48,884 bases of DNA from an uncultured Acidobacteriota bacterium. GTDB taxonomy: Bacteria; Acidobacteriota; Vicinamibacteria; Fen-336. The stretch lies in contig CADEEV010000009.1 in the NCBI GenBank assembly GCA_902826455.1, positions 77,186 through 126,069 of the forward strand, read 5' to 3'. Positions 1,938 to 20,773 of the stretch are shown here, piece by piece. Each line of letters starts with the position of its first letter. The first letter of the stretch is position 1. Below the pieces are notes generated by a model. It searched no databases. It was not told the DNA's origin and was given only the letters and a program-made list of their open reading frames with translations. The position numbers were made by a program, and so were the translations under genes.

Positions 1938-4385
1938 ATGGGAATCGCCACCGGGCTCGAGGAGCTGCGCCACGACGTGGGCTTCGCGCTGCGGCAGCTG
2001 CGCAGGACGCCCGCCTTCACCGCGGTCGCCGTCGCGACGCTGGCGCTCGGCATCGGCGCCAACAGCGCGATCTTCGCCCTCGTGGATGCCACGCTGCTGC
2101 GCCCGCTGCCGTTCGCCGAGCCCGATCGCCTGGTGGCGCTCCACGAGACCGTGGCCGGGGGCCGCAGCTACGTCTCCCCGCTCAACCTGCAGGACTGGGC
2201 CGCGCGCAGCCGCAGCCTCGACGGTGTCGCCGCCTTCACGCCGGGCGTCGGCGCGATGGTGATGGCGGGCGAGGACGGCAGCGCCGAGAACGTGTCGCGC
2301 CAGTGGGTCACCTCGGCCCTCTTCGACGTGCTGGGCGTCGAGCCGATCGTCGGGCGCACGTTCCTGCCGGCCGACGACGAGCAGCGCGCGAGGGTCGTCG
2401 TGATGAGCGAGCCGTACTGGCGCACGCGCTTCGCCGCCGACCCGCGCGTGGTCGGGCGCGAGCTCCGGCTCGACGGCATGCCGTTCACCGTCGTCGGCGT
2501 CGTGCCCGAGGCCTTCCGCCTGGTGGGCCGGAGCGACATCTGGGCCCTGCGCTCGTTCGTGGGCGCGCCGGATCGCATGCGCGGCTTCTACGGCCTCTCG
2601 GCCGTCGGGCGGCTGAAGCCGGGCGTCGGGCCCGAGGCGGCGCAGGCCGAGCTCCAGGGAGTGGCCGCGGGGCTAGCGCACGACTACCCGGCCACGAACA
2701 CCGGCCGCGGCATCGAGCTCGAGTCGCTGCGCGATGCGTACGTGGGCCTCGACGTGCGCCTGACGTCCCTGATGTTCCTGGGCGTCGTCGGCCTGGTCCT
2801 GCTCGCCTGCTGCGTCAACATCGCGAGCCTGCTGCTCGCCCGCGCGAGCGCGCGCAGCGGCGAGCTCGCCGTGCGCACGGCCCTGGGGGCCGGCCGCGGG
2901 CGCATCGTGCGCCAGCTCCTGACGGAGAGCGTCGTCCTCTCCGTCCTGGGCGGCGGCCTGGGCGTCGCGCTGGGCGCCGCCATCGTCGCCGGCGCGCCCT
3001 CCTTGTTGCCCGAGGGACTGCTGCCTCCGATCGTCCGGCTCGCCTTCGACCTGCGCGTCGTCGCGGCCTGCGCGGGCACGACGCTGCTGATCGGGGTGCT
3101 GTTCGGGCTGATACCGGCCTGGCAGGCGACGAGCGGGCCGCCCTCCGAGGCGTTGCGCTCCGAGTCGCGCGCGACCACGGGCGCGGGCGGCCGCGTGCGC
3201 GCCTTCCTGGTTGCGGGCGAGGTCTCCGCCGCCGTGCTCCTGCTCTTCGGCGCGGGCCTGCTGCTCCGCACGCTGGCCGCCGTCGGGTCGTTCGATCGCG
3301 GCTACCGGGCGGAGGGCGTCGTGTCGATGGTCGTCGACCCGTTGGGCTCGAAGTACCCGACGCCCGAGGCGTTGCAGCAGTTCTACGACGAGGTGGAGCG
3401 CGAGGTCCGCGGAGCCCCGGGCGTCGCCGACATGGCGTGGACGAGCGCCCTGCCTCTCGAGGCCCTCGAGGATCCGGGCGTGACGTACGAGATCGTCGGC
3501 GCCGCGCCCCTCGAGGCGAGCCGCCGGCCGAGCGCGCAGTACCAGGTCGTGAGCGCGAGCTACTTCTCGACGCTCGACCTGCCGATCGTCGCCGGCCGGG
3601 TCTTCGACCGGCGCGACGTGCGCGACGCCGTGCCGGTCGCGATCGTCAACGAAGCGTTCGCGCGATCCCTCGGGCGGTCTCCCGTCGGCCTGCGGCTGGC
3701 GCTCCGGGCCGCGTCGACACCCGACGCTCCCCCCGAGGAGCGCGAGGTCGTCGGCGTGGCGCGCCAGGTCAAGGGACGTCCGGACGAGGCCAGCGACCTG
3801 GTCCAGGTCTATGCGCCGGTCGTGCAGGACCTGACCGACGACCTCTACCTCGTGGCGCGGCCCGGCCCGGGCGCGGCCGCGGCACTCGCGGGCTCGGTGC
3901 GCGCCGCCATTGCGCGCGTCGACAAGGAGCGGCTCGTCGGCGTCCGGGACGTGATCACGCTGGCGGAGATCGACCGGGCGGCCACCGGCCGGCACCGCTT
4001 CCGGGCGCTGATGGTCGCGGCGTTCGCGGCGCTCGCCCTGGTGTTGGCGATGGCCGGGATCTTCGGCATCCTGGCCTACTCCGTCCAGCAGCGCCTGCGC
4101 GACCTGGGCGTGCGCCGGGCGCTGGGGGCGAGCACGCAGGACGTGGTCCGGCTCGTCGTGGCGAGCGCCGCGCGCCCCGTCGGCATCGGCATGCTCGTCG
4201 GGCTCGGGCTCGCGACGCTGCTCGGCCGCCTGATCGCGGCCTTCCTCTTCGGCGTGCGGCCGCTCGACCTCGCCACGTTCGCCGGCGTGACCGCCGTGCT
4301 GGCGGCGGCGGCCGCGCTCTCGGTGGCGGTCCCGGCGCTGCGGGCCGCGCGGGTCGACCCGGCGACGGCGCTGCGCGTGAAGTAG
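1938..4385 (+). CDS. ABC transporter permease, ADOP type (duplicated MacB/FtsX permease without its own ATPase)
   Basis: 815 residues starting at ATG 1938. The N-terminus (FALRQLRRTPAFT, then ATLALGIGANSAIF) is the hallmark of the acidobacterial duplicated orphan permease family. Order: first TM helix, MacB-type periplasmic domain (about 60-260), three TM helices with a FtsX core (about 275-405), one TM, a second periplasmic domain (about 450-680), and three C-terminal TM helices with the repeat LRDLGVRRALGAS. Such proteins export unknown substrates or act as MacB-like mechanotransmitters with an ATPase encoded elsewhere. No ATPase gene is adjacent. The stop is 9 bases from the convergent CreD-like gene. 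Confidence 0.9.
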   Translation: MGIATGLEELRHDVGFALRQLRRTPAFTAVAVATLALGIGANSAIFALVDATLLRPLPFAEPDRLVALHETVAGGRSYVSPLNLQDWAARSRSLDGVAAFTPGVGAMVMAGEDGSAENVSRQWVTSALFDVLGVEPIVGRTFLPADDEQRARVVVMSEPYWRTRFAADPRVVGRELRLDGMPFTVVGVVPEAFRLVGRSDIWALRSFVGAPDRMRGFYGLSAVGRLKPGVGPEAAQAELQGVAAGLAHDYPATNTGRGIELESLRDAYVGLDVRLTSLMFLGVVGLVLLACCVNIASLLLARASARSGELAVRTALGAGRGRIVRQLLTESVVLSVLGGGLGVALGAAIVAGAPSLLPEGLLPPIVRLAFDLRVVAACAGTTLLIGVLFGLIPAWQATSGPPSEALRSESRATTGAGGRVRAFLVAGEVSAAVLLLFGAGLLLRTLAAVGSFDRGYRAEGVVSMVVDPLGSKYPTPEALQQFYDEVEREVRGAPGVADMAWTSALPLEALEDPGVTYEIVGAAPLEASRRPSAQYQVVSASYFSTLDLPIVAGRVFDRRDVRDAVPVAIVNEAFARSLGRSPVGLRLALRAASTPDAPPEEREVVGVARQVKGRPDEASDLVQVYAPVVQDLTDDLYLVARPGPGAAAALAGSVRAAIARVDKERLVGVRDVITLAEIDRAATGRHRFRALMVAAFAALALVLAMAGIFGILAYSVQQRLRDLGVRRALGASTQDVVRLVVASAARPVGIGMLVGLGLATLLGRLIAAFLFGVRPLDLATFAGVTAVLAAAAALSVAVPALRAARVDPATALRVK

Positions 4386-4394
4386 CCGGGGCCC

Positions 4395-5651
4395 TTAGCC
4401 CGCGATCCTCTTCGCGAGCACGACGCCCCAGTCGACGCGCGCTGTGGCCTGCATCAGCACGAACAGCGTCGCCACCGACCCGAGGGTGACCGCGAGGCCC
4501 GTGTAGCCCTCGAAGAAGAACGCGTAGCTGAAGAGCACCAGGTACACGAGCTGGGCGAGCCCGGCCTCGAGGAGCGCGCTGCGCATGCCGGCCACGACGC
4601 GCAGGTAGCTCACCACGAGGAACACGCTGACGGCGGAGGCCAGCGCGAACGCGACGTGCAGGCTCACGTGGTCCACGAGGTAGGCGATCAGCAGGTGGAA
4701 CGCGAAGAACGCCGCCGACAGGAAGAAGTAGTTCATCGGGTGCAGGCTGTGCCCGCGCAGCACCCCGAGGATCACCATGACGGTGAAGAAGAACAGCAGC
4801 GAGACGGGCGCGAAGAACGTGATGCGCGCCGCGAGCGGGCCCGGGTTCAAGCGGTTGGGCGGGTCCATCCCGACGCGCTGGCCGGTCACGAGGCTCTCGA
4901 AATCCCAGCTCAAGCGGTAACCCGAGCCCTCGGGCGTGCGCTTCGTCGGCGACAGCGTCCCGGCGGGGAAGTCGATGCCGCCGAAGTTCGTCCGCAGGCC
5001 GAGGTGGAAGTCGCGCACCTGGGCGACGCCGCTCGGCGTGAAGGCATACGTCCACTCGCCGAGCCCGCGGGAGCGGTACGCGACCTTCACGACCGCGACA
5101 CCCCCCGGTGGGATCGTCGCGTCCATCACGAGGCCCTGGGAGAGATCGGTCACGGGCGGAGCGTCCTTGCCGTCGACGCTGAGCTGGAAGCCGTCGTAGA
5201 TCGCCTCCGTGGACGGGAACGCGAAGTGCACCTTGGCGTCGCGCGCGACGAGGCTGTCGTTGTGGACCCGGTACTCCCCGGAGAAGGTCACGCCGTAGGT
5301 GTCGTACCAGAGCAGGCCCTTCTTGCGCTGGTCGAGGTCGAGGGCGACCTCGACCCGGCTCGCGGCGAGGGGCAGCGGCACCTTGTCGCTGACCATGCGC
5401 GTCACGTCGCGCAGGACCGTCTTCCCGTCGGCGGTGGTCTCCTGGACCTTCTCGGTGACCGCCCGCGGCTGCTCGTACCATGTGTCCGGCGCCACTTGAT
5501 TGTGTCGGCCGCCCCACAGTTGAGCGACCTCGGTGGCGAGCTGCGCGTCCTTCTCGCCGGTGCGCTCGACCACGGACGCGCCCAACGTAAACCACGCTAC
5601 GGCCGCACAACAGTAGATGAACCCGATGGCCAGCACGCGAGCAGGTGTCAA
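4395..5651 (-). CDS. CreD-like inner membrane protein
   Basis: 418 residues. TM1 is at about 5-25, followed by a large periplasmic beta-rich domain (30-285) and about five C-terminal TM helices (from FFFTVMVILGVLRG onward). The final segment, GYTGLAVTLGSVATLFVL followed by ATARVDW, matches the conserved end of CreD-family proteins, where a glycine-rich helix is followed by a T/A-R-x-DW motif. CreD is linked to envelope stress and beta-lactam response; no CreBC genes are visible here. The start is TTG at 5651, supported by a strong Shine-Dalgarno AAAGGAGG four bases upstream (complement of 5656-5663). It is the last gene of the minus-strand run from ileS. Confidence 0.6.
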   Translation of the reverse strand: MTPARVLAIGFIYCCAAVAWFTLGASVVERTGEKDAQLATEVAQLWGGRHNQVAPDTWYEQPRAVTEKVQETTADGKTVLRDVTRMVSDKVPLPLAASRVEVALDLDQRKKGLLWYDTYGVTFSGEYRVHNDSLVARDAKVHFAFPSTEAIYDGFQLSVDGKDAPPVTDLSQGLVMDATIPPGGVAVVKVAYRSRGLGEWTYAFTPSGVAQVRDFHLGLRTNFGGIDFPAGTLSPTKRTPEGSGYRLSWDFESLVTGQRVGMDPPNRLNPGPLAARITFFAPVSLLFFFTVMVILGVLRGHSLHPMNYFFLSAAFFAFHLLIAYLVDHVSLHVAFALASAVSVFLVVSYLRVVAGMRSALLEAGLAQLVYLVLFSYAFFFEGYTGLAVTLGSVATLFVLMQATARVDWGVVLAKRIAG

Positions 5652-6089: not shown

Positions 6090-7123
6090 CAGCGCGCTCC
6101 TCCGTTCAGGAACCCGACGACCTCCTGGATCAGGCGGGTGCGTCCGTGCTCGGGTCGATCGAGATGGGCGAGGTGGGTCGCCTGGGGTAGCACCACGACC
6201 CTGACGCTCGAGGCGTGCACGAGCTCGTCGCGCAGCGCCTCGCGATCCCCCGGTCGCGACCAGAAGTCGAGCTCGGAGGCGATCACGAGAGTCGGTGCAT
6301 GGATCAAGGAGGCGTCCCAGAGTCGATGCCCGCTCGCGAGCAGGAACGAGTCCTCCATGGCGCCGGCAGGGGAGCGGAACGTCGCTGGAGTGCGAGCGGA
6401 CGACGTCGGATCGCTCGCGAGTGCCGCCTCGCCGTAGGCTTTCGCGACCGCGGGATCGCGCCACGAGGCCTTGTCCTCCACCGGGATGCTGCGATCCCAG
6501 GCTCCGAACAGCGAGGCCTCGGTGCCGAGCCGGTACGCGCCGAAGGCCGGATCGAACCGGCCGGGTCGTGCCGGATTCTCGAGGTCGGAGCCGGGACCGA
6601 GCATCGGGTGTCCCGAGGTCGCGCCGTAGAGCGTGTTGAACATCACGAGGTGGCTGACGCGCTCGGGATGCAGGGTCGCGAAGAAGCCGGCCCAGTGGCC
6701 GCCCGTGGCCCAGCCGAACAGCGCGACGCGCTCGACGCCGGCGCGTCCGCAGATCCACTCGACGATCGCGCCGATGTCGCGGACCACCTCGGGAGACCGC
6801 ACGAGCGGTGGGTGGGCCGAAGGCGGCTCGTCCATCGCGGCCGGTCGTGTCGAGCCGCCGTAGCCGCGCGCGTCCATCACGTAGACCGGGTGGCCGGCGG
6901 CTGCCAGGTCGGCGGCGAGAGAGCCCCCGGCGACGGCGAGGTCGAAGGACGCCAGCCCCGGAACCCGCGCGCCATGGAGCAGCAGGACCGGTACCCCCGT
7001 GGCCTTCTCGGGGCGCACCTCGCGGACGAAGAGCCGGATGCCAGGATCGCTCGGGACCAGGCTGTCCGCGCGCACCGGCCCGGCCGTGGCGGCGAGGGCG
7101 AGGCCCAGGAGGAGAGCCGTCAT
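6089..7123 (-). CDS. Secreted alpha/beta hydrolase fold protein with atypical nucleophile elbow
   Basis: 344 residues with an N-terminal signal peptide (cleavage near GPVRA-DS, residue 19/20). It shows an alpha/beta hydrolase layout: HG oxyanion loop at 50-51, DARGYGGS at 84-91, nucleophile elbow LFGWATGG at 135-142, acid region SELDFWSRPGD, and the histidine motif ATHLAHLDRPEHG near the C-terminus. The usual Gly-X-Ser-X-Gly reads GWATG, so Ala139 occupies the nucleophile position; Thr140 is next to it. It is either a non-classical or non-catalytic member. The substrate is unknown. It begins 12 bases after the DUF2007 gene and overlaps the DUF488 start. Confidence 0.8.
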   Translation of the reverse strand: MTALLLGLALAATAGPVRADSLVPSDPGIRLFVREVRPEKATGVPVLLLHGARVPGLASFDLAVAGGSLAADLAAAGHPVYVMDARGYGGSTRPAAMDEPPSAHPPLVRSPEVVRDIGAIVEWICGRAGVERVALFGWATGGHWAGFFATLHPERVSHLVMFNTLYGATSGHPMLGPGSDLENPARPGRFDPAFGAYRLGTEASLFGAWDRSIPVEDKASWRDPAVAKAYGEAALASDPTSSARTPATFRSPAGAMEDSFLLASGHRLWDASLIHAPTLVIASELDFWSRPGDREALRDELVHASSVRVVVLPQATHLAHLDRPEHGRTRLIQEVVGFLNGGAR

Positions 7124-7479: not shown

Positions 7480-10400
7480 TCAGAAGCTCTGGCCGAAGCT
7501 GAAGTAGTACCGCCAGGACCTGGTGCCGGGCTCGGGCTGGAGAGCGTGGCCGAGGTCGAAGCGCAGGAGGCCGACCGGCGACGCCCAGCGCAGCCCGACG
7601 CCGAGGCTGTGCTTCAGGTCGAAGCCGATGTCGCCGACCGCCGAGAACACGTTGCCCGCGTCCCAGAACACGACGCCTCCCCAGCCGGAGGCGTGGCGGT
7701 AGCGCAGCTCCTGGTTCATGACGACGGTCGCGTTGCCGCCGGCGGGGTCGCCCAGGAAGTCGCGGGGCCCGAGGCTGTCGGTGGCGTAGCCGCGCACGCT
7801 CGTGGCGCCGCCGGCCCGGAAGCGCTCGTCGGGGATGAGGTCCTGGCCCGCGAAGGTCCAGGCGAGGCCGGCGCGGTACGCCTGTCCCCACACCAGGGTC
7901 GGCGTGAGCTGGCGGTACACGAAGCCCTGGGCGAAGGTCTTGAAGAAGCGGAGATCGGAGCCCAGGGCCTCGGGCGAGTACTCGACGTTGAGGCTCAGGA
8001 ACTGGCCGCGCGTCGCGTCCAGGGCGAAGTCGCGGCTGTCGCGCACGAAGGACGCGTTGACCGTGGCGACGCTCACGGTGATGGGCTCGATCAGGATCGG
8101 CGAGGTGAGCGTGCTGCGCTTGAAGCGGTAGCCGAACAGCAGGTTCGTCAGGTCGCCCAGGGGGATCTTCTGCTGCAGGTCGAAGCCGCGCTCGAGAGAG
8201 TTGTTCTTCTCGGAGTCGGGGTCGAGCTCGTTGATCGGCAGGTCCTCGCTGATGCGGAACAGCGATCCCACGAGGTCGCCGCGGAACAGCGTCGGGATGC
8301 GCAGCGAGACGCGCTCCTCCTCGATGTTCCCGCCCAGTCTCAGGCGGCCGCCCAGGGCGATGCCACGCCCGAAGAGGTTGCCGCGCTCCGCGTCGATCTG
8401 GCCCGACAGGCGGTCCTCCTCGTTGTACCGCGCCTGGTAGCCGAGATAGACCGGGCCCTGCTCCTGAAGGTCGACCGTGATCGTCGACGGGTTCGAGCGC
8501 GCGTAGGTGATCGAGGCGCGCGTGAAGATGCCGAGCTCGAGGAGCCGCCGCTCGGCGCGGGTCAGCTCGCGGATGTCGAGGGGATCGCCCTCCTTCAGCT
8601 TGAGGCTGTGGAGGACCAGGCTCTCGCGGGTGCGGTCGATGCCCTTGACCTCGATGCTGCCCACCGTGAGGCGCTCGCCTTCGTCGATGCGCAGCGTGAG
8701 CTCGAGGTCGGGCGGCGCGGTCTTGATCTCGGTCGCGACGCGCACCGCGGGGAAGCCGAGGGCGAGGTAGTGGTCGCGCAGCCGCGCCACGGCGGCGATG
8801 ACCTGGTCCTCGACGTAGGGCTCGCCGATCTCGAGCTGCGCGGACGACTCGATCTCCTCGAGGGGCCGCGAGCTGCCCTCGACGTGCAGGGCCTTGATCG
8901 TGGCTTCGGGTCCTTCCACGACCGGCACCGTGATCGCGATCGCGGCGCCGTTCTCCTGGATCGACACCGGGCCCGCCTGGGCGGCGAGGTAGAGCTCCTC
9001 GCCATAGGCCTGGCGCACGCGGCCCAGGGCGGCCTCGGGCTCGACGACGAACGCGCCGGGCCCGCCGCCCGCGCGCGACAGCGCGGTGGTCGAGAGCTGT
9101 GTCGCGCCGGGGAACGTCAGGGCGACCGAGGTGTAGGCCGTCCCCGGCGTCGCGCGGAACACGAGGACGCGCTCGCCGGCGTTCGCCTCGGTGGACGTCT
9201 CGACCTTCGCCCGCAAGTGGCCCGCGTCGCGCAGCTCGGCCAGGACCAGGGCCTTGCCGCGCTCGGCGGCCTCGTCCTCGTAGAGCGAGTCGAGGAGCTC
9301 CTTTTCGAGCTTCGCAGGCACGGGGGCGCCCTCGACCCGCGTGGAGAAGTGGGGGCCCGGCCGCAGCGTGAACGTGGCGACGCCGTCCTTGACGCGAGCA
9401 CTCGCCTCCGCCTCGATGTAGCCGCGCTTCACGAGCTCGAGGCGCAGCGCCTCGGCGTCGTCCTGCAGCCGGCCGGAGCCGGCACGCTTGCCCTCCTTCA
9501 CCTTGAGACGGCCGCGCAGCGCCTCTTCCGTGCCCTGGGGCGCGCCGTCGATGACGACGCTCCTGAGCTCCGGAGAGCGCTCGCGCGCCGGCGCCTTGGG
9601 CTTCTTCGGGCCGCCGAAGCGCCGCTTCTGACCGACGCCGCCCGTGAGCACGCCGTCGTCGTCGCGCTGGCCGAGCACCTTCACTTCCTTGGGCAGGTCG
9701 GCCTCGAGCTGGGTGAAGCGCGCCTCGGCGTCGTTCAGCGAGTAGGACTGGATCAGCCGCAGGCGCCGGGCGAGCTGCTTCTCGAACGTGAAGCGCGCCC
9801 CGGGCTCCTTCTCGCGCGAGAGCAGCTCGGGCTGCAGGCTCACCCGGTCCAGGCCCAGGCCCCGGGCCAGGCCGCCCGTCAGCCGGCCCGTCATCAGGAT
9901 CGCCAGCTGGTTGCCGGCGAGATACCCGACGCTCTGGGTGGCGCCCGTGTCCAGGCGGCCGGTGCTGATGAGGCTCAGGACCTCCGCCTCGCTGTGGGTC
10001 GAGGGCTCCGACGAGAACGACAGCGTCGGGTTGTCGAGGCTCCCCGAGGCCGTGACGGCCACGGCGTAGTCCTGCTGCTCGTCGATGCTGTGGATCGTGG
10101 CGGTGAGGCGCATGGACACGTCCGGGTTCCACGTGCCGGCGTAGGTGAGCGCGCCCGACTCGACCGTGAACTCGTGGCCCTGGATCTCCACGGTCCCGCC
10201 CTCCGCGATGTCGAAGCGGCCGAAGGGCGCCGGGGTCTCGAGGTCGCCGCGCGCGGTCAGGCTGCCGCTCGCCTCCACGTTGATGAGGTCGTGGCGCACC
10301 ACCACGGGGGTGTCCGTGATGACGCGGATGTCGAGGGCAAGGCTGCGCAGGAGCGGGGAGGGCTCCGGCGACGTGTCGACGGTCGTGCCCTTGAGGCTCT

Positions 10401-13400
10401 GCTGCAGGACCGTGTCGATGTCGTAGCGACCGCGGTCGGCGTGCACGTCGCCCGCGAGCAGGAACGCGCCCGTGCGCCCCGTCAGGGTGAGGTCCACGGT
10501 GGCCCGCGAGCGCAGCCCCTCGGGATAGCGGAGGTTGAGGTCGCGGCCCTCGAGCTTCACGTTCACGTCCTTGAGGCCGCGGGCCCCCAGCACGCCGCCG
10601 CCGCTCGCCGTCACCGTGCCGCCGGCGAGATCCCCCGTGAGGCCCTCGAGGTGGAGCCCCTGGGGATCGAACACCACGCTGCCCTTGAGCGAGGTCAAGG
10701 CGTGGGGGAAGATCCGCGCCCGCACGCTGGCGTCGGCCACGTCGAGGCGGCCGAGGGGCTGGGGCGCGTCGAGGGTGCCCGACAGCTCGAGGTCGAGATC
10801 GGCGGTGCCCGCGACGGACGTGGCGGTGAGGAACGGCGAGAGCGCGCGCAGGTCGATGCGCCCCTTGCCGGAGCCCTGGATCTGCCGGCTCGCGAAATCG
10901 ACGCCGCCGCCGAGCGTCACCGAGGCGTTCGCGGCCGTGACCGTGACGTCCTTCGCCGTGGCCTTCTGCTGCGCGAGCGTCAGCTCGATCGGCGTCACCT
11001 CCACCGCGAGGTCGTTCATCCGGACGTTCTCGAGCGCGAGGCGCGCGGTGCCACGCAGCTCGGCCGGCGCCGCCAGGCCGCCTTCGGCCCTGGCCTCTCC
11101 GGACGAGGACGCCACGAGCGACTGCGCGACCTGGGGGGCCGCCTCGCGCAGCAGCGCGGGCACGTCGACGCCCTTCCAGGCGAGGTCGAGGTGCGCCTCC
11201 TCCGCGGGCGCGACGGCGTCGCGCCGCGCGCGCGCCGCGGGCCAGGCCGCGGCCAGCGGCACCCGCCCCTCGACGACGACCTCGCCGGTCGCGACCTCGA
11301 CCCTCGTCGGCGGCAGCACGAGCGTCTCGCCGTCGACCTTGGCCGTGGCCAGCGGGATGCCGACCGTCGGCAGCCTCGCCCCGGCGACGACGACGTCGGC
11401 CAGGGTCAGGTCGCCGCGGGCGGCCGGCCTCCGGGCCGTGCCCGAGAGCGCGAGCTCCCCGGCCAGCAGGCCCTTCGCCGTCGTGCCCTCGGGCAGCGGC
11501 AGCGCCCCGAGGTCCGCCGAGAAGCGCGCGCGCAGGTCGACGCGCGCCGCGCTGTCGGTGCCCACGCTGCCGTCGAGGAACAGCGTCGCGCCGTTGCCGG
11601 TCGCGCGCAGGCCCTCGACGCGCACCGAGCCCGCCTTCGCCTCGACGAGGAAGGGAGCCTCGGTCCGGGCGTTGTAGTCGCCCCGGGCGAGCGTGACGGC
11701 GTCGACGCTCCCGCGCAGTTCCGCGGCCGAGGGCGTCGCCACCGGCACGCTGAAGGTTCCGGTCGCAGAAACGCTGCCGGTGACGCCCGGCTGGCCCGCC
11801 GCCCGGGCCAGCACCTCGACGGGAGTCTCGCTCAGCGTCACGTGGCCCGTGATCGACTTCGCTCCGGCGCTCGCGCGCCGGGCGTCGCCGGAGAGCTTCA
11901 GGGCCGGCGCCTCGAAGCGAGCGGAGAGCGCGCCGCGCTGCGCCTCGAGGGTCGCGTTGGCCGGACCCAGGGCCGTGCCGTTCCACGCGACCGCGTCGAC
12001 GTCGAGCCGGCCCTGGCCGGCCGCCAGGCCGAGCGGGTCGGTCAGGTCGAACTCGAGGGTGAGGCTGCCTCCCGCGCGGGGATCGAGGAGCGACAGGTCC
12101 AGGGCCGAGCCCGACGCGGTGAGGCGTCGTGGCTCGGTGCCGGCCAGATCGAGGGCCAGGTCCAGGCGGCCCGTCCCGGGCTGAGCCAGCAGCTCGACGC
12201 GGCCGGCCCCGTTCTTCGCGTGGACCGAGCCCGTGAGCGGCACGTCGAGGCTGCCCTGGGGGCGCGCGACACGCGCCGTTCCGGAGAGCTCGCCGTCGAT
12301 GGCCGGCGGCCAGGCGCCGCGCGCCGTTCCGGCGCCGTGGGCCGTGAGGTTCTCGACCTGCGGCGCCGTGGCGTTCGCGTCGGCGGTCCAACGGAGGTCC
12401 AGGCTGCGGCCGGCCATCGCCACGCTGCCCTTGGCCGTGGACTTGAGCGTGTACCGCGTCCCTCCCTTCGCCCCGTCGACCGTGGCCGAGCCGTCGACGG
12501 CGAGCCGGCTCTCGAACGGCCCCCGGGCCTGGACGAGCGCCGACAGGCGGCCCACGTCGGGCAGGCTCAGGTTCTGCGCGGTGACGCGAGCGTCCAGGTT
12601 CGGCCCGCGCTTCTCGGCCCGCGCCACGACGCTGCCGCCCAGGACGCGGACGGTCGCGTCGAGCGTCGCGACGTCGGCCCGGTACGAAGCGGTCGCGGTC
12701 GTGGACTCGAGCGCATGGCCCGAGACGACGAGGCCTCGCGTGACGAGCGTGGCATCGGCCACGGGAGCCTCGAGGGTGCCCTGGATGCGGGCCTCGACGC
12801 CGACCTGGCCGCGGGCGTCGACCGTCGCGTCGGGGACGAGGGCCAGCACTTCCGGCAGCGTCGCCTGGGCCGCGACCTTCAGGTCGGGCTTCGGCGCCAT
12901 CAGGTCGCCGACGGTGCCCGTGATCTCCGCATGGAGCCCGGTCGTGTCGAAGGTCGAGGACTCGATCGTGGCCTCGAGGTTCGTCGCGATGCGCACGCTC
13001 GCCTTGGCCGCTCCGCTCCCGGGCCGCGGCTCCTTCCACGCGATGCGGGGCGCGTCGAGGGTCAGGGTTCCGTCGCCCACCGAGCCATGCGCCTCGAAAC
13101 CCGCGAGGGACCCCGCGGCCGCCTCGACGCTGCCGTCGGTGAGGTCGAGCTGGTCGATGCGCAGCCGCAACAGCCCGGAGGGACTCTTGGAGGTGTCGGT
13201 GGCCGGCTTCACGGTGATCCGGGGCGACTCGACCTGCAGCGACTTCAAGTCGATGAGCGTGCCCGTGACCGTGGCCCAACGCGACGCCAGCCGGACGCGC
13301 GGGGCCTCCAGGCGGAAGGCCGGCGCGTCGACCGACAGGCCCTCGATCTCCGCCGTCAGGCGGGCTGGCACCACGTGGACCCGGCCCAGCGTCACGGTGC

Positions 13401-13530
13401 CGCCCAGGGCGGTCGAGGCGCGCGATTCCAGGAACCTCCGCAGGGGGTCCTGAGGGAACAGCCCGAAGGCCACGAGAGCCAGGACGACGGCCAGCAGGCC
13501 GAGCGCCAGCCCGGCGCGCTTCCACGTCAC
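7480..13530 (-). CDS. TamB-Omp85 fusion: inner-membrane-anchored TamB joined to a five-POTRA BamA/TamA-like outer membrane barrel
   Basis: 2016 residues. An uncleaved signal-anchor helix (about 6-26) is followed by a long AsmA/TamB-like beta-rich region (about 30-1130) and the TamB C-terminal DUF490 core (about 1140-1305, with STGRL and ending GGVGQKRRF). A short Lys/Pro linker (PKKPKAPARER) leads into five POTRA-like repeats (about 1321-1690) and an Omp85 barrel (about 1692-2016). The barrel carries the diagnostic FRAGGATSVRGY (VRGY at 1912-1915) and ends in Phe (FSFGQSF). TamB and TamA normally act as separate partners in outer-membrane protein assembly and phospholipid transport between membranes. 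No second signal peptide precedes the POTRA part. The GTG start overlaps the NUDIX stop as GTGA. Confidence 0.9.
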   Translation of the reverse strand: MTWKRAGLALGLLAVVLALVAFGLFPQDPLRRFLESRASTALGGTVTLGRVHVVPARLTAEIEGLSVDAPAFRLEAPRVRLASRWATVTGTLIDLKSLQVESPRITVKPATDTSKSPSGLLRLRIDQLDLTDGSVEAAAGSLAGFEAHGSVGDGTLTLDAPRIAWKEPRPGSGAAKASVRIATNLEATIESSTFDTTGLHAEITGTVGDLMAPKPDLKVAAQATLPEVLALVPDATVDARGQVGVEARIQGTLEAPVADATLVTRGLVVSGHALESTTATASYRADVATLDATVRVLGGSVVARAEKRGPNLDARVTAQNLSLPDVGRLSALVQARGPFESRLAVDGSATVDGAKGGTRYTLKSTAKGSVAMAGRSLDLRWTADANATAPQVENLTAHGAGTARGAWPPAIDGELSGTARVARPQGSLDVPLTGSVHAKNGAGRVELLAQPGTGRLDLALDLAGTEPRRLTASGSALDLSLLDPRAGGSLTLEFDLTDPLGLAAGQGRLDVDAVAWNGTALGPANATLEAQRGALSARFEAPALKLSGDARRASAGAKSITGHVTLSETPVEVLARAAGQPGVTGSVSATGTFSVPVATPSAAELRGSVDAVTLARGDYNARTEAPFLVEAKAGSVRVEGLRATGNGATLFLDGSVGTDSAARVDLRARFSADLGALPLPEGTTAKGLLAGELALSGTARRPAARGDLTLADVVVAGARLPTVGIPLATAKVDGETLVLPPTRVEVATGEVVVEGRVPLAAAWPAARARRDAVAPAEEAHLDLAWKGVDVPALLREAAPQVAQSLVASSSGEARAEGGLAAPAELRGTARLALENVRMNDLAVEVTPIELTLAQQKATAKDVTVTAANASVTLGGGVDFASRQIQGSGKGRIDLRALSPFLTATSVAGTADLDLELSGTLDAPQPLGRLDVADASVRARIFPHALTSLKGSVVFDPQGLHLEGLTGDLAGGTVTASGGGVLGARGLKDVNVKLEGRDLNLRYPEGLRSRATVDLTLTGRTGAFLLAGDVHADRGRYDIDTVLQQSLKGTTVDTSPEPSPLLRSLALDIRVITDTPVVVRHDLINVEASGSLTARGDLETPAPFGRFDIAEGGTVEIQGHEFTVESGALTYAGTWNPDVSMRLTATIHSIDEQQDYAVAVTASGSLDNPTLSFSSEPSTHSEAEVLSLISTGRLDTGATQSVGYLAGNQLAILMTGRLTGGLARGLGLDRVSLQPELLSREKEPGARFTFEKQLARRLRLIQSYSLNDAEARFTQLEADLPKEVKVLGQRDDDGVLTGGVGQKRRFGGPKKPKAPARERSPELRSVVIDGAPQGTEEALRGRLKVKEGKRAGSGRLQDDAEALRLELVKRGYIEAEASARVKDGVATFTLRPGPHFSTRVEGAPVPAKLEKELLDSLYEDEAAERGKALVLAELRDAGHLRAKVETSTEANAGERVLVFRATPGTAYTSVALTFPGATQLSTTALSRAGGGPGAFVVEPEAALGRVRQAYGEELYLAAQAGPVSIQENGAAIAITVPVVEGPEATIKALHVEGSSRPLEEIESSAQLEIGEPYVEDQVIAAVARLRDHYLALGFPAVRVATEIKTAPPDLELTLRIDEGERLTVGSIEVKGIDRTRESLVLHSLKLKEGDPLDIRELTRAERRLLELGIFTRASITYARSNPSTITVDLQEQGPVYLGYQARYNEEDRLSGQIDAERGNLFGRGIALGGRLRLGGNIEEERVSLRIPTLFRGDLVGSLFRISEDLPINELDPDSEKNNSLERGFDLQQKIPLGDLTNLLFGYRFKRSTLTSPILIEPITVSVATVNASFVRDSRDFALDATRGQFLSLNVEYSPEALGSDLRFFKTFAQGFVYRQLTPTLVWGQAYRAGLAWTFAGQDLIPDERFRAGGATSVRGYATDSLGPRDFLGDPAGGNATVVMNQELRYRHASGWGGVVFWDAGNVFSAVGDIGFDLKHSLGVGLRWASPVGLLRFDLGHALQPEPGTRSWRYYFSFGQSF

Positions 13531-14078
13531 GCGGAGGGGGGCCCGCTGCCTTGCCGACGCTCACGCTCCAACAGGAGGGCCACGAGCGTCTTGCCTTCAC
13601 GAATCGCGCCAGATCCGATCATTGCCCGGGCTTCGTCGAGGGGCAGCGCGCGCACCTCGATCCGCTCGTCCGCCTCGGGCCTCGGAGGTCCCTGGCTGAG
13701 GCCGGTCGCCCGGAACAGGTGCATGACCTCGTCGCAGAATCCCGGCGTTGTGTAGAAAACGCCCATGGGCTCGATGTTTCTCGCCCGGAGACCGGTCTCT
13801 TCCTCGAGCTCGCGGCGGGCGCCTTCCAGGGCCGTTTCGCCGGGATCCAGCCTCCCGGCCGGCAGCTCCCAGACCCCGTCGTCGACGGGGTAGCGGTACT
13901 GCCGGATCAGCACCACCCGCCCGTCCTCGTGGACGGCCAGCGCCGCGACCGAGCCCCGGTGCCGGACGACCTCGCGGGTCGCCCGGACGCCCCCCGGCTC
14001 CTCGACCTCGTCCACGTCGAGCGACAGCACCTTGCCGTCGTAGAGCCGCGTCGTCGAGAGCCGGCGTCCCCCGGACAT
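13527..14078 (-). CDS. NUDIX hydrolase, ADP-ribose pyrophosphatase-like
   Basis: 183 residues. A complete Nudix box spans 75-97 (GRLDPGETALEGARRELEEE, then TGL), matching G-x5-E-x7-REUxEExGU, which binds divalent metal. The YRYPVDDGVWELPAG segment before it and the TTPGFCDEVMHLF segment after it are typical of ADP-ribose / nucleoside-diphosphate-sugar pyrophosphatases. Its stop overlaps the start of the TamB-Omp85 gene by four bases (GTGA), so the two are probably translated together, although no functional link is obvious. It lies 6 bases after the upstream secreted protein gene. Confidence 0.9.
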   Translation of the reverse strand: MSGGRRLSTTRLYDGKVLSLDVDEVEEPGGVRATREVVRHRGSVAALAVHEDGRVVLIRQYRYPVDDGVWELPAGRLDPGETALEGARRELEEETGLRARNIEPMGVFYTTPGFCDEVMHLFRATGLSQGPPRPEADERIEVRALPLDEARAMIGSGAIREGKTLVALLLERERRQGSGPPSA

Positions 14079-14084
14079 TCGGGC

Positions 14085-15611
14085 CTAGCGCGGGCTGATC
14101 GCGACGTTGTCGAAGCGCACGACGCCGCCTTCGGCGTTGACGCGAATCTCGGTGATCTTCGCGGGCTTGGGCCGCAGCGCGGCCAGGTCCTGGGTCCAGG
14201 GCGACCAGGCCCCCGGTCCCTCGCCGCCCGTGACCTCGAGGTTCGAGGTCCGCGTCTTGCCGGAGGCGTCGGCGTAGCTCACCTGGACGCGGATCACGGC
14301 CTCGCCCGAGATCACCTTGTAGTCGAGGCTCAGGGGCACGGCTCCGGAGCCGACGCCCACGTCGACGCTCTGCGAGGTCGAGACCGGCGCGCCGCTCGCC
14401 GCGGCCTCGAGCACGCTGCCGCGGCCGCTCTCCTGGGCCACGCGGCCCTTGCCGGTGACGGTCCAGGGCGCGAGGCTCGACTCGAAGGAGCCGTTGCGCA
14501 GCGGGGTGCCGCTCACGGCCAGCTTCACGGGCGCGGAAGGCGCCACCGCTGCGGGCTTCGAGGGGCTTGCCGGCTTCGACACCGCGCGCTGGGCCGGCTG
14601 CGGGTGCTTCTCGTCGCGGAAGTCGGCGAGCTCCTGCATGAACAGCGTCGCGGTGGCGGCGTAGGCCAGGCTCTGGTCGACGCGGGGCGGGGGCTCGCGG
14701 AAGTACTTCTCGCCGGAGTCGAGCTGCAGCGCCTTGAGGTAGAGCTCCTTCGCCTCGGTGAGGTGGCCGCGATGCTCGGGCGTGAAGGGCGGCATCTTGT
14801 AGGCCAGGGCCTCGTGGGCGACGCCGACGTTGTGCAGCCGCGCGGCCTCCGTGTCGCCCTTGAACGTGCGGCGGTTCCACTCCTCGAGGGCCTCCTGGAA
14901 CAAACCGGCCTCGGCCAGCTTGTTGCCCGCCTTGAGCTCGTCGTTCACGGCGAGCAGGGCTTCGACCGGGTCCGGAGCGAAGGTGATCTGGCCGATGACG
15001 TTGTCCGCGGTGGCCGAGACCAGGAAGCGCTTCAGCGACTCCTCCGTGGACGCCTCGGGAGGCAGGCCGCCCTCCATCTTGAACTGCTTGTGGTACGAGC
15101 CGCCGACGTCGGTGGTGCGGTCGCCGCCGCCGCCCTGCACGACGACCGTGGCCGACAGGCTGCCGTCCGCGATGCGCCAGTTCTCGGGCTCGGAGCGGTT
15201 GCCGTAGACGTCCTTCGTCTCCATCTTCTTCTTCTTGTCGTTCCACTCCTGGCGCTCGCCGATCTTCACGTACTTCGTCTCCATGCGGACCTCGTCGCGC
15301 ACCTCGGCGCGCAGGGCGGAGAGCGAGACGCGGAGCGTCGCGTCGGCGCCGCGCTCGCGGTCGACGAGGCGGTACATGTCGCTGCCGCGCAAGGCGTCCT
15401 CGACGCGGCCCTTCACGAGGGAGACGTGGGAGCCCGTGACCTCGGGGGACTCCGAGCGCACGTCGAGGAAGACGGTCTCGGCCAGCAGCGCGTTCACGGG
15501 GGGCCGCACGCGCGGCAGCATCACGCGCGTCTTGCTCATGCCGAACTTGGCCTCGGCCATCGAGCCGAGCCCCAGTAGAACCAAGGCCACGACGAGCCCC
15601 TTCATCCGCAT
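14085..15611 (-). CDS. Secreted multidomain protein: CsgG-like N-terminus, TPR-like middle, carbohydrate-binding-like C-terminus
   Basis: 508 residues with a signal peptide (about 1-22, ending SMAEA). Residues 40-240 resemble periplasmic CsgG/LpoB-like domains (VEDALRGSDMYRLVDRE, ADATLRVSLSALR). Residues 240-330 hold helical TPR-like repeats (EALEEWNR, EAKELYLKALQ). After a Pro/Ala/Ser linker, residues 365-508 form a jelly-roll-like module beginning NGSFESSLAPWTV, resembling CBM4/9. A Shine-Dalgarno-like GAGGG lies 6 bases before ATG 15611; ATG 15605 is also possible. The domain assignments are by eye. A scaffold or polysaccharide-related role is an inference. Confidence 0.55.
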   Translation of the reverse strand: MRMKGLVVALVLLGLGSMAEAKFGMSKTRVMLPRVRPPVNALLAETVFLDVRSESPEVTGSHVSLVKGRVEDALRGSDMYRLVDRERGADATLRVSLSALRAEVRDEVRMETKYVKIGERQEWNDKKKKMETKDVYGNRSEPENWRIADGSLSATVVVQGGGGDRTTDVGGSYHKQFKMEGGLPPEASTEESLKRFLVSATADNVIGQITFAPDPVEALLAVNDELKAGNKLAEAGLFQEALEEWNRRTFKGDTEAARLHNVGVAHEALAYKMPPFTPEHRGHLTEAKELYLKALQLDSGEKYFREPPPRVDQSLAYAATATLFMQELADFRDEKHPQPAQRAVSKPASPSKPAAVAPSAPVKLAVSGTPLRNGSFESSLAPWTVTGKGRVAQESGRGSVLEAAASGAPVSTSQSVDVGVGSGAVPLSLDYKVISGEAVIRVQVSYADASGKTRTSNLEVTGGEGPGAWSPWTQDLAALRPKPAKITEIRVNAEGGVVRFDNVAISPR

Positions 15612-15644
15612 CGGTTTCCCTCGCTTGTTCGCTTTGGCTGGATT

Positions 15645-16571
<927 letters not shown>

Positions 16572-17367
16572 GTTTCTTCACCAGGTACGGCCAGATGGCC
16601 GCGACGCCGAGCAGCATCGCGATCGCGATCACCTGGGAGGTCGAGAGCAGCCCGCCGAAGAAGAAGCCCCGCGCCAGGTCGCCGCGGTAGAACTCGAGGC
16701 CGAAGCGCGCCACGGCGTAGAGCCCGAAGTAGCTCAGGGCCACCTGGCCCGGGAAGCGCTTGCGCGGCGCGAGCCACAGCAGGAACAGCAGGATCAGCGT
16801 CGTGAGGATCGACTCGTAGAGCTGCGTGGGATGGACCGGCGTGTCCATCGGCGTGCCGACCGTGCGGGCCGCGTACAGGTCGGTGTAGCGCACGGCCCAG
16901 GGCACGTCGGCGGGACGGCCGTGGCAGCAGCCGGCGGCGAAGCAGCCGAGGCGGCCGATGGCCTGGCCGATCGCGACGCCCGGGGCCAGCACGTCCGCCG
17001 TGCGCCAGCCCTCGAGCTTGTGGCGCTTCACGTACCACCAGGCGACCGGCAGCGCGCCGAGCAGGCCGCCGTAGAACACGCCGCCGCTCTGGAAGATCGA
17101 CAGGAACTCCGAGGGGTTGGCCCGGTACATGGGCCACTCCACGAGCACGAGCATGAGCTTGGCGCCCACGAGGCCGGCGATCAGCACGTAGACGCCGAGG
17201 TCGGTGACGCGCGTCGCGTCGAGGCCCTCGCGGCGCGCCTGGCGCCCGGCGATCCAGAGGCCGGCCAGGAAGGCGATCGCGAGCAGCACGCCGTAGGTGT
17301 GCAGCGTCAGCGGGCCGTGGTGCCAGAGCAGGTCGAAGTCGGGTGTGGTGAAGAGGCGGGGATACAT

Positions 17368-17892
17368 CTATTCGCTCCTGCCGAGGGCCGGCGGTACGGG
17401 GCTGGGTTCGGCCGCGGCGTCGCGCTTCGGCGACCGCAGCATGTCGAGGAACAAGAGCACGACGCCGGTGCTGATGGCGGAGTCGGCCAGGTTGAAGTCG
17501 GGCCACACGTACTGGCGCCAGTACACGTGGATGAAGTCCACGACGTATCCGAAGCGCACGCGGTCGATCAGGTTGCCGAGGGCGCCGCCGAGGACGAGCA
17601 CCAGGGCGAGGCGCGGCAGCCGGGCCTCCTTCGGCAGGCGCAGCCAGTAGACCGCGATCGCGCCCAGGGCGAACAGGCTCACGACCGAGAGCAGCACGCC
17701 CTGGTAGGGCAGGCCCGCCTCGGCGAGGATCCCGAAGGCGGCGCCGCGGTTGCGCACGTGGGAGAGCGACAGCATGCCGTCGACCAGCGGGCGGTACTCG
17801 TGGAGCTCCAGGGACCGCTTCAGGATCTCCTTCGTGACCTGGTCGGCCACGATGACGGCGGGAATGATCGCGAGCTCGGCCTTGCGCGTCAT
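17368..17892 (-). CDS. lspA: Signal peptidase II (lipoprotein signal peptidase)
   Basis: 174 residues with four TM helices. The two catalytic Asp motifs are present: GNLIDR (Asp about 110) and NLADSAI (Asp about 137). DQVTK near the N-terminus and NRGAAFG are also conserved. LspA cleaves the signal peptide of diacylated prolipoproteins. The ATG at 17892 overlaps the ileS stop as ATGA, which fixes the start. The arrangement ileS-lspA is common in bacteria. The C-terminal tail after the last helix is rich in Pro/Ala. Confidence 0.97.
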
Positions 17893-20702
17893 CGCGCCTC
17901 GAGCACCGTGGCGCAGCGCTCGCACACGCCCGCATGGACCCTGAGCTTGCCGACGTTCGCCGAGTACGTCCAGCAGCGCTCGCACTTGCCGCCCTCGGCG
18001 CGCGTCGCCGTGACCGCGTAGGGCCCGGCCTCGCCGGGATCGCCTTCGGTCAGCCGCACGCCGCTGACGATGAACAGGTTCGCGAGGTTGCCGGGGAAGA
18101 CGGAGCTCGCGGCGTCGTGGGCCCGCAGCGGCGCCAGGGCTTCCTTGGTGGCCCGGATCTCGACCACGGCCTCGAGGCTGCCGGCGAGGGTCTTGTCCGC
18201 GCGCAGCGGCTCGAGGGCGGCGGTGACCGCCGCGCGGGCCTCGAGGAGCGCGGCCCAGTGCTGGAGGACCGACTCGTCCACGGCCTCGGCCTTCGGGAAG
18301 TGGGTCGTCGCGACCGGCGCGCCGTCGTGGCCCGGCACGAGCGGCCAGACCTCGTCGGACGTGAAGGGCAGCGCCGGAGCCATCAGCCGGGTGACGTCGC
18401 TCAGGATGCGCAGCATGACGGTCTGGGCCGAGCGGCGCCGCCTGGCCGCGGGCGCGTCGCAGTAGAGGCGGTCCTTGAGGATGTCGAGATAGAAGGCGGA
18501 GAGATCCACCGAGCAGTACTGGACGAGCTGGTGGTACACGACGTGGAACTCGTAGTCGTCGTACGCCTTCACGACGCGGGCCACGAACTGGCGGTGACGG
18601 TGCAGCGCGTAGCGGTCGAGCTCGTCGAGCTCGGCCTCGTCCACGGCGTGCTGGGCCGGCGCGAAGTCGTTGAGGTTCGAGAGCAGGTAGCGCAGCGTGT
18701 TGCGCACCTTGCGGTAGGCCTCGGAGACCCGCTTCAGCATCTCGTCGCTGAAGCGCATGTCCTCGCGGTAGTCGACCATGATCGTCCACAGCCGCAGGAT
18801 CTCGACCCCGTGGGTCTGGATCAGCTTCTGCGTGTCGACGTCGTTGCCGAGGCTCTTGGAGATCTTGCGGCCGTCCTTGTCAACGGTGAAGCCGTGGGTG
18901 ACGACCTGCTTGTAGGGCGCCGTGCCCCGGGTGCCCACGCCGATCAGCAGCGACGAGTGGAACCAGCCGCGGTGCTGGTCGCTGCCCTCGAGATACACGT
19001 CGGCAGGCCACTGGAGATACGGCCGCTTCCCGAGGACCGCCGCGTGGGACGAGCCCGAGTCGAACCAGACGTCGAGGATGTCCTTCTCCTTGTCGAAGTC
19101 GGTCTTTCCGCACTTCGTGCAGGCGAACCCGGGCGGCAGCAGGTCCTTCGCCTCGTGGTCGTACCAGGCGTCGGCCGTCTCCTTCTCGAAGACGTCGGCC
19201 ACGCGCCGCGCGAGCTCGGGCGTGAGGTGCACGGCGCCGCAGGCCTTGCAGTAGAACGCCGGGATCGGCACGCCCCACAGGCGCTGGCGCGAGATGCACC
19301 AGTCGGGCCGGGTCGCGATCATGTTGTGGATGCGCTCCTCGCCCCAGGCGGGGAACCACTTCACTGCCTCGATCGCCTTCAGGGTGCGCTCGCGGAAGCC
19401 GTCCTTGTCGAGGGCGATGAACCACTGCTCGGTGGCGCGGAAGATGATCGGGTTCTTGCAGCGCCAGCAGATCGGGTACGAGTGCTTGTTCTTGCCGGAG
19501 GCGAGCAGCACCCCGCGCTCCTTCAGGAACGCCACGATCTCGGGGTTCGCGTCGAACACCTTCTTGCCGGCCCAGGGCTCGATCTCGGGCAGGTAGCGGC
19601 CCGCCTCGTCCACGGGGCAGTAGATGTCGAGGCCGTACTTGACGCCGGTGAGGTAGTCGTCCCAGCCGTGGCCCGGCGCCGTGTGCACGACCCCGGTGCC
19701 GGCCTCGAGGGTCACGTAGTCCCCCAGCACGACCGGCGAGTCGCGGTCGAGCCAGGGATGGCGGAACCGCACGTGCTCGAGGGGCGCGCCCTTCGTCTCC
19801 GCGACGGGCCCGCCGAGCGTCAGCCCCCAGCGCGCGGCGCTCGCGTCCTTCAGGCCCTGCGCGACGAGCAGCACGTCGGAGGTGCCCTCGACCGGGTAGA
19901 AGCCGTAGTCGAGGTCGGGGTGCAGCGCCACCGCCAGGTTGGCCGGCATCGTCCACGGCGTCGTGGTCCAGATGACCGTGAAGACGTTGCGGCCCTTCAG
20001 GGCCGGGAACAGGTCCTCGAGCCGGGCCTTCTCGCTGTCCTTCAGCGGGAAGCGCACGTCGATCTGCGGGCTCACGTGGTCTTCGTCGTATTCGACCTCG
20101 GCCTCGGCCAGCGCGGTGCGGTCGGAGATGCACCAGTGCACGGACTTCTTGGCCTTGTAGACGAGGTCCTTCTCGACGAAGGTCGCGAGCTCGCGGACGA
20201 TCGCGGCCTGGTACGACGGCGCCATGGTCTTGTACGGGTCGCCCCACTCCCCGAGCACGCCCAGCCGCACGAACTCGGCCCTCTGGATCTCGAGGAACTT
20301 CTCGGCGTACGCGCGGCAGGCCTTGCGGAAGGCCACCGGCGACATCTCGCGCTTCTTGGACCCGAGGTCCTTGTCGACCTTGAGCTCGATGGGGAGGCCG
20401 TGGCAGTCCCAGCCCGGCACGTAGGGCGAGTCGAAGCCCGCCATCGTGCGGCTGCGCACCACCAGGTCCTTCAGGATCTTGTTGAGCGACGTGCCCAGGT
20501 GGATGTGGCCGTTCGCGTACGGCGGCCCGTCGTGGAGGATGAACTTCGGGGCGCCCTTCCGGGACGCACGCACCTTCTCGTACAGGCCGTCCGTCTGCCA
20601 GCCTTCCACCCGCTTCGGCTCCGTCTGCGGGAGGTTCGCCTTCATCGGGAACGTGGTCTGGGGAAGGTTGAGGGTGCCCTTGAGGTCGAGTGTCTCGCTC
20701 AT
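17889..20702 (-). CDS. ileS: Isoleucyl-tRNA synthetase
   Basis: 937 residues from ATG 20702. Class Ia motifs are in place: the HIGH region [11 protein letters not shown] at 60-70 and KISKSLGN at about 613-620. The editing (CP1) domain lies between them (TWTT-like [16 protein letters not shown] and [12 protein letters not shown]). A C-terminal zinc finger has CERCWTY and CERC. It charges tRNA-Ile and edits Val. An in-frame start further upstream at 20723 would add seven residues, but [14 protein letters not shown] is the usual beginning. No Shine-Dalgarno is visible; a -10-like TACGCT lies 11 bases upstream. Confidence 0.98.
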
Positions 20703-20713
20703 GCCAAAACGTA

Positions 20714-20719
20714 AGCGTA
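20714..20719 (-). promoter_or_regulatory. Possible -10 box (TACGCT) for ileS
   Basis: On the minus strand TACGCT lies 11 bases before the ileS ATG with no ribosome binding site between them. This matches the spacing seen at other transcription-unit starts in the window and would give a nearly leaderless transcript. The match to TATAAT is modest and no -35 is clear. Confidence 0.3.
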
Positions 20720-20773
20720 GCATTCGGGGCTAAAGCCCGTCAAAAGAACGCCTTGGCGGGGAGTTCGACTATC

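Follow-up and report, generated by a model that had tools for sequence, protein, structure and literature searches.

Can a TamB protein and its Omp85 partner be a single polypeptide? In the TAM of Pseudomonadota, TamA and TamB are encoded by separate genes, with tamA first in E. coli. The question is raised by one gene of an uncultured Acidobacteriota soil bacterium (contig CADEEV010000009.1), located in a stretch of 48,884 nucleotides that was analyzed as a whole and is called the window here. In this gene, a TamB part is followed by POTRA domains and an Omp85 barrel. We found no description of a TamB-Omp85 fusion in the literature searched, which covered few subscription journals or preprints and named TamB-BamA and TamB-TamA operons. 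The text of Heinz et al. 2015 (PMC4494059), which describes the TamB-BamA operons, does not contain the words "fusion" or "fused". The parts of TAM are therefore already known, and the covalent one-chain architecture is new as far as this search shows.

The fusion gene and its reading frame

The fusion gene (Table 1) starts with GTG and has a 4-nt overlap with the stop of the upstream NUDIX gene. Its GC content is 73.6%, and the same stretch is also stop-free in another minus frame (2154 codons) and in one plus frame (2069 codons). Because other frames are likewise open at 74% GC, the open frame is weak evidence, and we rejected it as proof of the fusion. The coding status of the frame rests on GC3, which is 0.91-1.00 along its whole length, and on homology in the same frame on both sides of the junction. 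Matches to Pfam TamB (PF04357, residues 964-1292, 8.5e-37, 127.7 bits versus a cut-off of 22.4), POTRA (three stretches, 7.4e-24, 84.7 bits versus 21.3) and Omp85 (PF01103, 2.4e-40, 139.5 bits versus 24) all fall in one reading frame, indicating that TamB and Omp85 are not encoded as separate chains at this locus.

The genes upstream of the fusion (window 13527-20723, minus strand) encode the NUDIX protein, a 508-residue ORF without a Pfam match, an RNA pseudouridine synthase and an IleRS-like tRNA synthetase. In two of the ortholog loci, L036 and L041, the fusion likewise has a NUDIX gene and a pseudouridine synthase gene nearby. A MacB/FtsX-type ABC permease is encoded at window 1938-4385 on the plus strand.

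Table 1 Features of the fusion gene and its upstream neighbor, in window coordinates.
Feature	Residues	Position	Strand	Basis
tamB-omp85 fusion gene	2016 codons + stop	7480..13530	-	ORF/translation; Pfam TamB, POTRA and Omp85
N-terminal hydrophobic anchor (putative), basic residues ahead	~5-24	13459..13518	-	KD 12-residue maximum 3.05
TamB/AsmA-like beta-groove (predicted)	45-1180	9991..13398	-	AlphaFold2 and face analysis; overlaps Pfam TamB
TamB C-terminal domain, two helices and six strands	1181-1305	9616..9990	-	model secondary structure
Linker, 14 aa, without signal peptide	1308-1321	9568..9609	-	sequence, KD12
Five POTRA-like domains (predicted)	1324-1390, 1394-1461, 1468-1534, 1544-1616, 1626-1690	8461..9561	-	model, BamA alignment, Pfam
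Omp85 16-strand barrel, final residue Phe	1694-2016	7483..8451	-	model strands; Pfam Omp85 1718-2016
VRGY motif of barrel (Omp85 loop-6 type)	1912-1915	7786..7797	-	sequence
Upstream NUDIX gene (context only)		13527..14078	-	Pfam PF00293, 3e-24

Domain architecture of the fused protein

The AlphaFold2 model of residues 1-1160 (mean pLDDT 82.8) contains 69 strands of at least 3 residues and forms continuous beta-structure from about residue 45. The groove strands are one-sidedly hydrophobic: over the 60 predicted strands of at least 8 residues, the face difference is 2.53, versus 1.43 ± 0.13 in shuffled strands, which, on the predicted model, fits a lipid groove. A PDB fold search with the groove found TamAB chain B (9xdd, 9xdc), but ApoB and LPD-3 score above or near it, so the search may back a lipid-groove fold only in broad terms. 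The fusion is not a member of the NCBIfam equivalog for proteobacterial TamB (NF047952, 55.7 bits versus a cut-off of 825). The N-terminal anchor was assigned by hydrophobicity only. In relatives, a conserved FPQ-P-R stretch follows this hydrophobic segment, and no AxA site is evident after it in the orthologs.

The model of residues 951-2016 (mean pLDDT 83.6) shows, in order, the end of the groove, the TamB C-terminal domain, the linker, five beta-alpha-alpha-beta-beta units and 16 barrel strands. The TamB C-terminal domain of E. coli likewise has two helices and six strands (PMC12800296). The POTRAs and barrel align along their whole length with residues 24-808 of the five-POTRA E. coli BamA; the rmsd is large, as expected of a hinged arm. 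The model and this structural alignment support a prediction of five POTRAs, as in canonical BamA, which also shares the barrel and a VRG[FY]-type motif but has no TamB part. The S/R/G columns of the motif are invariant in alignment A2. The fusion also shares with the TAM of Pseudomonadota a TamB groove with its C-terminal domain and an Omp85 part with POTRAs and a 16-strand barrel, but TamA has three POTRAs, and the last strand of TamB, which ends the chain in that system, is internal in the fusion. It belongs to neither the TamA equivalog (NF047950, 119.5 bits versus a cut-off of 625) nor the BamA equivalog (TIGR03303, 221.4 bits versus 297.15), although some other fusions surpass the latter cut-off (325.6 in genome G092 and 323.1 in G180).

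The linker separating the last TamB strand from POTRA1 is basic and Pro-rich and has low predicted confidence in the AlphaFold2 model. No hydrophobic segment was found in it by KD12 (maximum 0.32, versus 2.0-3.3 in the tested N-termini of split Omp85 proteins). Across 73 fused genes, the median linker length is 16 residues, and 68 linkers have 9-29 residues; a few values of about 256-306 arose because the POTRA1 model had matched a later repeat at those loci. The linker sequence is variable among relatives, and the flanking domains are conserved. The last TamB strand is kept in the fusions, with alternating hydrophobic residues usually followed by Gly-Gly. A looser alternating pattern ends the TamB part in 58 of the 73 genes, versus 24.2 in shuffles. 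The strict beta-signal GXX(aromatic)X(aromatic) was also tried and is only weakly supported (8/73 versus 2.0 in shuffles).

These results bear on a sequence-only reading of the locus, which had proposed one uninterrupted frame joining a membrane anchor, a TamB groove with its DUF490 end, POTRA domains and an Omp85 barrel. Every named element was found, including the VRGY motif and the terminal Phe, which hold by sequence. The claim that the Omp85 half has only a basic, Pro-rich linker and no signal peptide of its own also held, with the linker placed at 1308-1321 rather than at about 1306-1320. The structure prediction of the C-terminal half that this reading proposed gave the domains as claimed, and five BamA-like POTRAs, rather than the three of TamA, are supported. 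The weight placed on the uninterrupted frame had to be corrected, as it is weak evidence alone at this GC.

Distribution and phylogeny of fused and split genes

The in-frame junction is kept in all 12 orthologous loci of the host's relatives, and the named copies among them are Vicinamibacteria or Acidobacteria MAGs. One further fused locus (L084) is labeled Candidatus Aminicenantes. In a search limited to 396 sampled Acidobacteriota genomes, at least 81 had a stop-free match that begins in TamB and continues through the barrel, covering about 31 family codes; this is a lower bound, counted by hand from the search table. One of these carriers, G092, is a single-contig genome of 6.0 Mb with 99% completeness, and its fused protein contains TamB, four POTRA stretches and Omp85. 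Because the same in-frame junction recurs in the 12 loci and in this many genomes, including one of a single contig, we conclude that the fusion is real. We checked 20 genomes that carry the fusion, and 13 of them have no TamB above the cut-off other than the fused protein; therefore, whatever the role of TamB is in these 13, it is done by the one-chain form.

Several individual loci deserve separate mention. In the ortholog L031, the frame changes within the TamB part, near residue 800 (near 5160-5380) and not at the junction; this may be an assembly error or a real split. Six genomes (G002, G186, G210, G215, G307 and G382) have two fused genes apiece, and two relatives (L060 and L061) have unusually long fused frames of 2969 codons.

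The host genome has two TamB domains in total, one fused and one in a split TamB/Omp85 pair on contig C17. The split genes form a separate paralogous lineage that coexists with the fusion in the same genome. The host also carries two canonical BamA genes on contigs C24 and C29 (L044 and L045; 504 and 498 bits versus a cut-off of 297). We considered whether the fusion could be the host's BamA and rejected this, because two canonical BamAs are present in the same genome and the fusion itself scores below the cut-off.

The split pair of the host (locus L043) is of the TamB-BamA operon type described in Acidobacteriota and Spirochaetes (PMC4494059). These operons likewise place a BamA-like Omp85 beside TamB, but they consist of two genes, the Omp85 usually carries a signal peptide of its own, and they belong to a clade separate from the fusions. 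In the split operons we examined, the omp85 start overlaps or sits near the tamB stop, and the Omp85 N-terminus is mostly signal-peptide-like; the omp85 start could not be assigned for some loci (e.g., L066-L068). In four Blastocatellia loci (L087-L089 and L103; near 7044-7050), tamB and omp85 are in the same frame with one stop and 6-15 nt between them. This arrangement is a plausible pre-fusion state, from which a fusion could arise easily. Terriglobia loci (L092-L148) also have separate genes, in the reversed order of omp85 then tamB, an order noted for Acidobacteria by Heinz et al. 2015 (PMC4494059).

Phylogenetic trees were built with FastTree and, for a set of 47 rows, with IQ-TREE. With the Omp85 half, FastTree places 53 of 54 fused genes in one group, and IQ-TREE places 23 of 24 in one clade (SH-aLRT 97). 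For the TamB half, all 50 fused genes lie on one side of a branch with a support of 79. The two halves give a concordant history, as would follow from joint duplication or divergence, and one old fusion accounts for nearly all cases. The exception is L211 (genome G077, family f35), which groups with split genes on the Omp85 half (SH-aLRT 98), and a single clade for all fused Omp85 halves is rejected (p-AU 0.013). A single origin of every fusion is therefore not favored, although the TamB tree disagrees and does not show L211 apart from other fused genes. We consider a second, independent fusion in the L211 family, and hence two origins, likely but not certain. L211 itself has a longer linker and six POTRA stretches, and two more genomes of family f35 have similarly long frames.

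The sequence-only reading had argued for an evolved fusion rather than the recent loss of a stop, and this is supported by the deep clade, which takes in every fused gene in the TamB tree and nearly every one in the Omp85 tree. It had also stated that close relatives with two separate genes would refute it; this did not occur, as the orthologs are fused and the split genes belong to a paralogous lineage of their own. The fusion of TamB, POTRA and Omp85 recurs in relatives across Acidobacteriota, and the gene belongs to a widespread family rather than being peculiar to one genome.

A proposed single-chain bridge and its alternatives

We think it likely that the fusion is a single-chain TAM, in which TamB and a BamA-like Omp85 form one polypeptide bridging both membranes. 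The domain content, order, frame, conservation and phylogeny, the co-occurrence with canonical BamA and the status as sole TamB in several genomes are shown. Export as one chain, survival without cleavage, simultaneous residence in both membranes and function in phospholipid transfer or OMP insertion are all inferred, and no experiment exists on any fused member. In the proposed arrangement, the N-terminal helix would serve as the inner-membrane anchor, the amphipathic beta-groove would cross the periplasm and lead through the short linker to POTRA1, and the barrel would be seated in the outer membrane by BAM. The fusion would then be a bridge docked at all times, conducting phospholipid, helping to insert a subset of OMPs, or both. 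TamAB of E. coli reportedly carries phospholipid along TamB and helps insert some OMPs (PMC12800296), and TAM inserts OMPs in vitro, with both parts required (PMC11341756). A 1:1 stoichiometry and assembly of the barrel while tethered, both proposed by the sequence-only reading, remain inferences.

In E. coli, TamB reportedly touches all three POTRAs, and its last strand pairs with barrel strand 1, giving a hybrid barrel with the free C-terminal strand of TamB inside the TamA barrel (PMC12800296); in Borreliella, TamB binds POTRA2 and 3 of BamA (PMC11361582). By analogy, the order in the fusion, with the end of TamB followed by POTRA1, agrees with these TamB-POTRA contacts. A point against the single-chain reading is that the barrel-pairing strand lies about 14 residues from POTRA1, at the far end of a five-POTRA arm, and its contact with the barrel in cis looks strained. 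We infer that this strand, being retained, is probably still used. It may pair with POTRA1, with its own barrel if the arm folds back, or with a neighboring molecule.

Three alternatives need to be weighed. The fusion could be an artefact in which two genes were joined by a sequencing or assembly error, and in its favor the open frame is weak evidence, as other frames are open at this GC. However, the identical junction in independent orthologous loci, its recurrence across many genomes including the one-contig genome, and the clade formed by the fused genes all but exclude this explanation, which we rejected on the evidence of relatives. Alternatively, the chain could be cut in the linker after export to give an ordinary two-part TamB/Omp85 complex, with the fusion only ensuring equal amounts and co-delivery. 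In favor of this, the linker is short, Pro-rich and basic and was modeled with low confidence, its sequence varies between conserved domains, and split relatives function as two proteins. However, the fused clade shares no conserved cleavage motif, and the narrow range of linker lengths fits a structural joint at least equally well, so cleavage seems unlikely but is not excluded.

The N-terminal helix could also be removed as a signal peptide, leaving an outer-membrane Omp85 with a long periplasmic groove and no inner-membrane anchor. The N-terminus is indeed basic and then hydrophobic, as in secretory signals. Nevertheless, the orthologs keep the FPQ-P-R stretch after the hydrophobic segment without an evident AxA motif, and in E. 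coli the TamB anchor is a single helix that is not cleaved off (PMC11341756). We regard this as very improbable, without being able to exclude it. A bolder version of the single-chain reading holds that one uncut polypeptide is integral to both membranes and has taken the place of all separate TamB proteins in several lineages of Acidobacteriota, with its barrel assembled while tethered and its TamB active without a free C-terminus; the balance of evidence tips slightly towards it.

Other pairs of a TamB family protein with an Omp85 protein include TamL-TamB of Bacteroidota (PMC4494059, PMC12045153), where TamL, unlike the fusion, is a lipoprotein. Tic236-Toc75 of chloroplasts is another such pair. 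To our knowledge, both are always made as two chains. How TamB pairs with its partner, in what ratio, and whether it needs a free C-terminal strand in the partner barrel are open in the TAM field. In a natural fusion, the pairing is set and no free end is left, which makes all of these questions testable with one gene. If intact, the chain would be integral to both membranes, raising the question of how BAM can insert a barrel that is still tied to the inner membrane. Because the fusion is the only TamB in some lineages, these lineages suggest that a fixed bridge may be sufficient.
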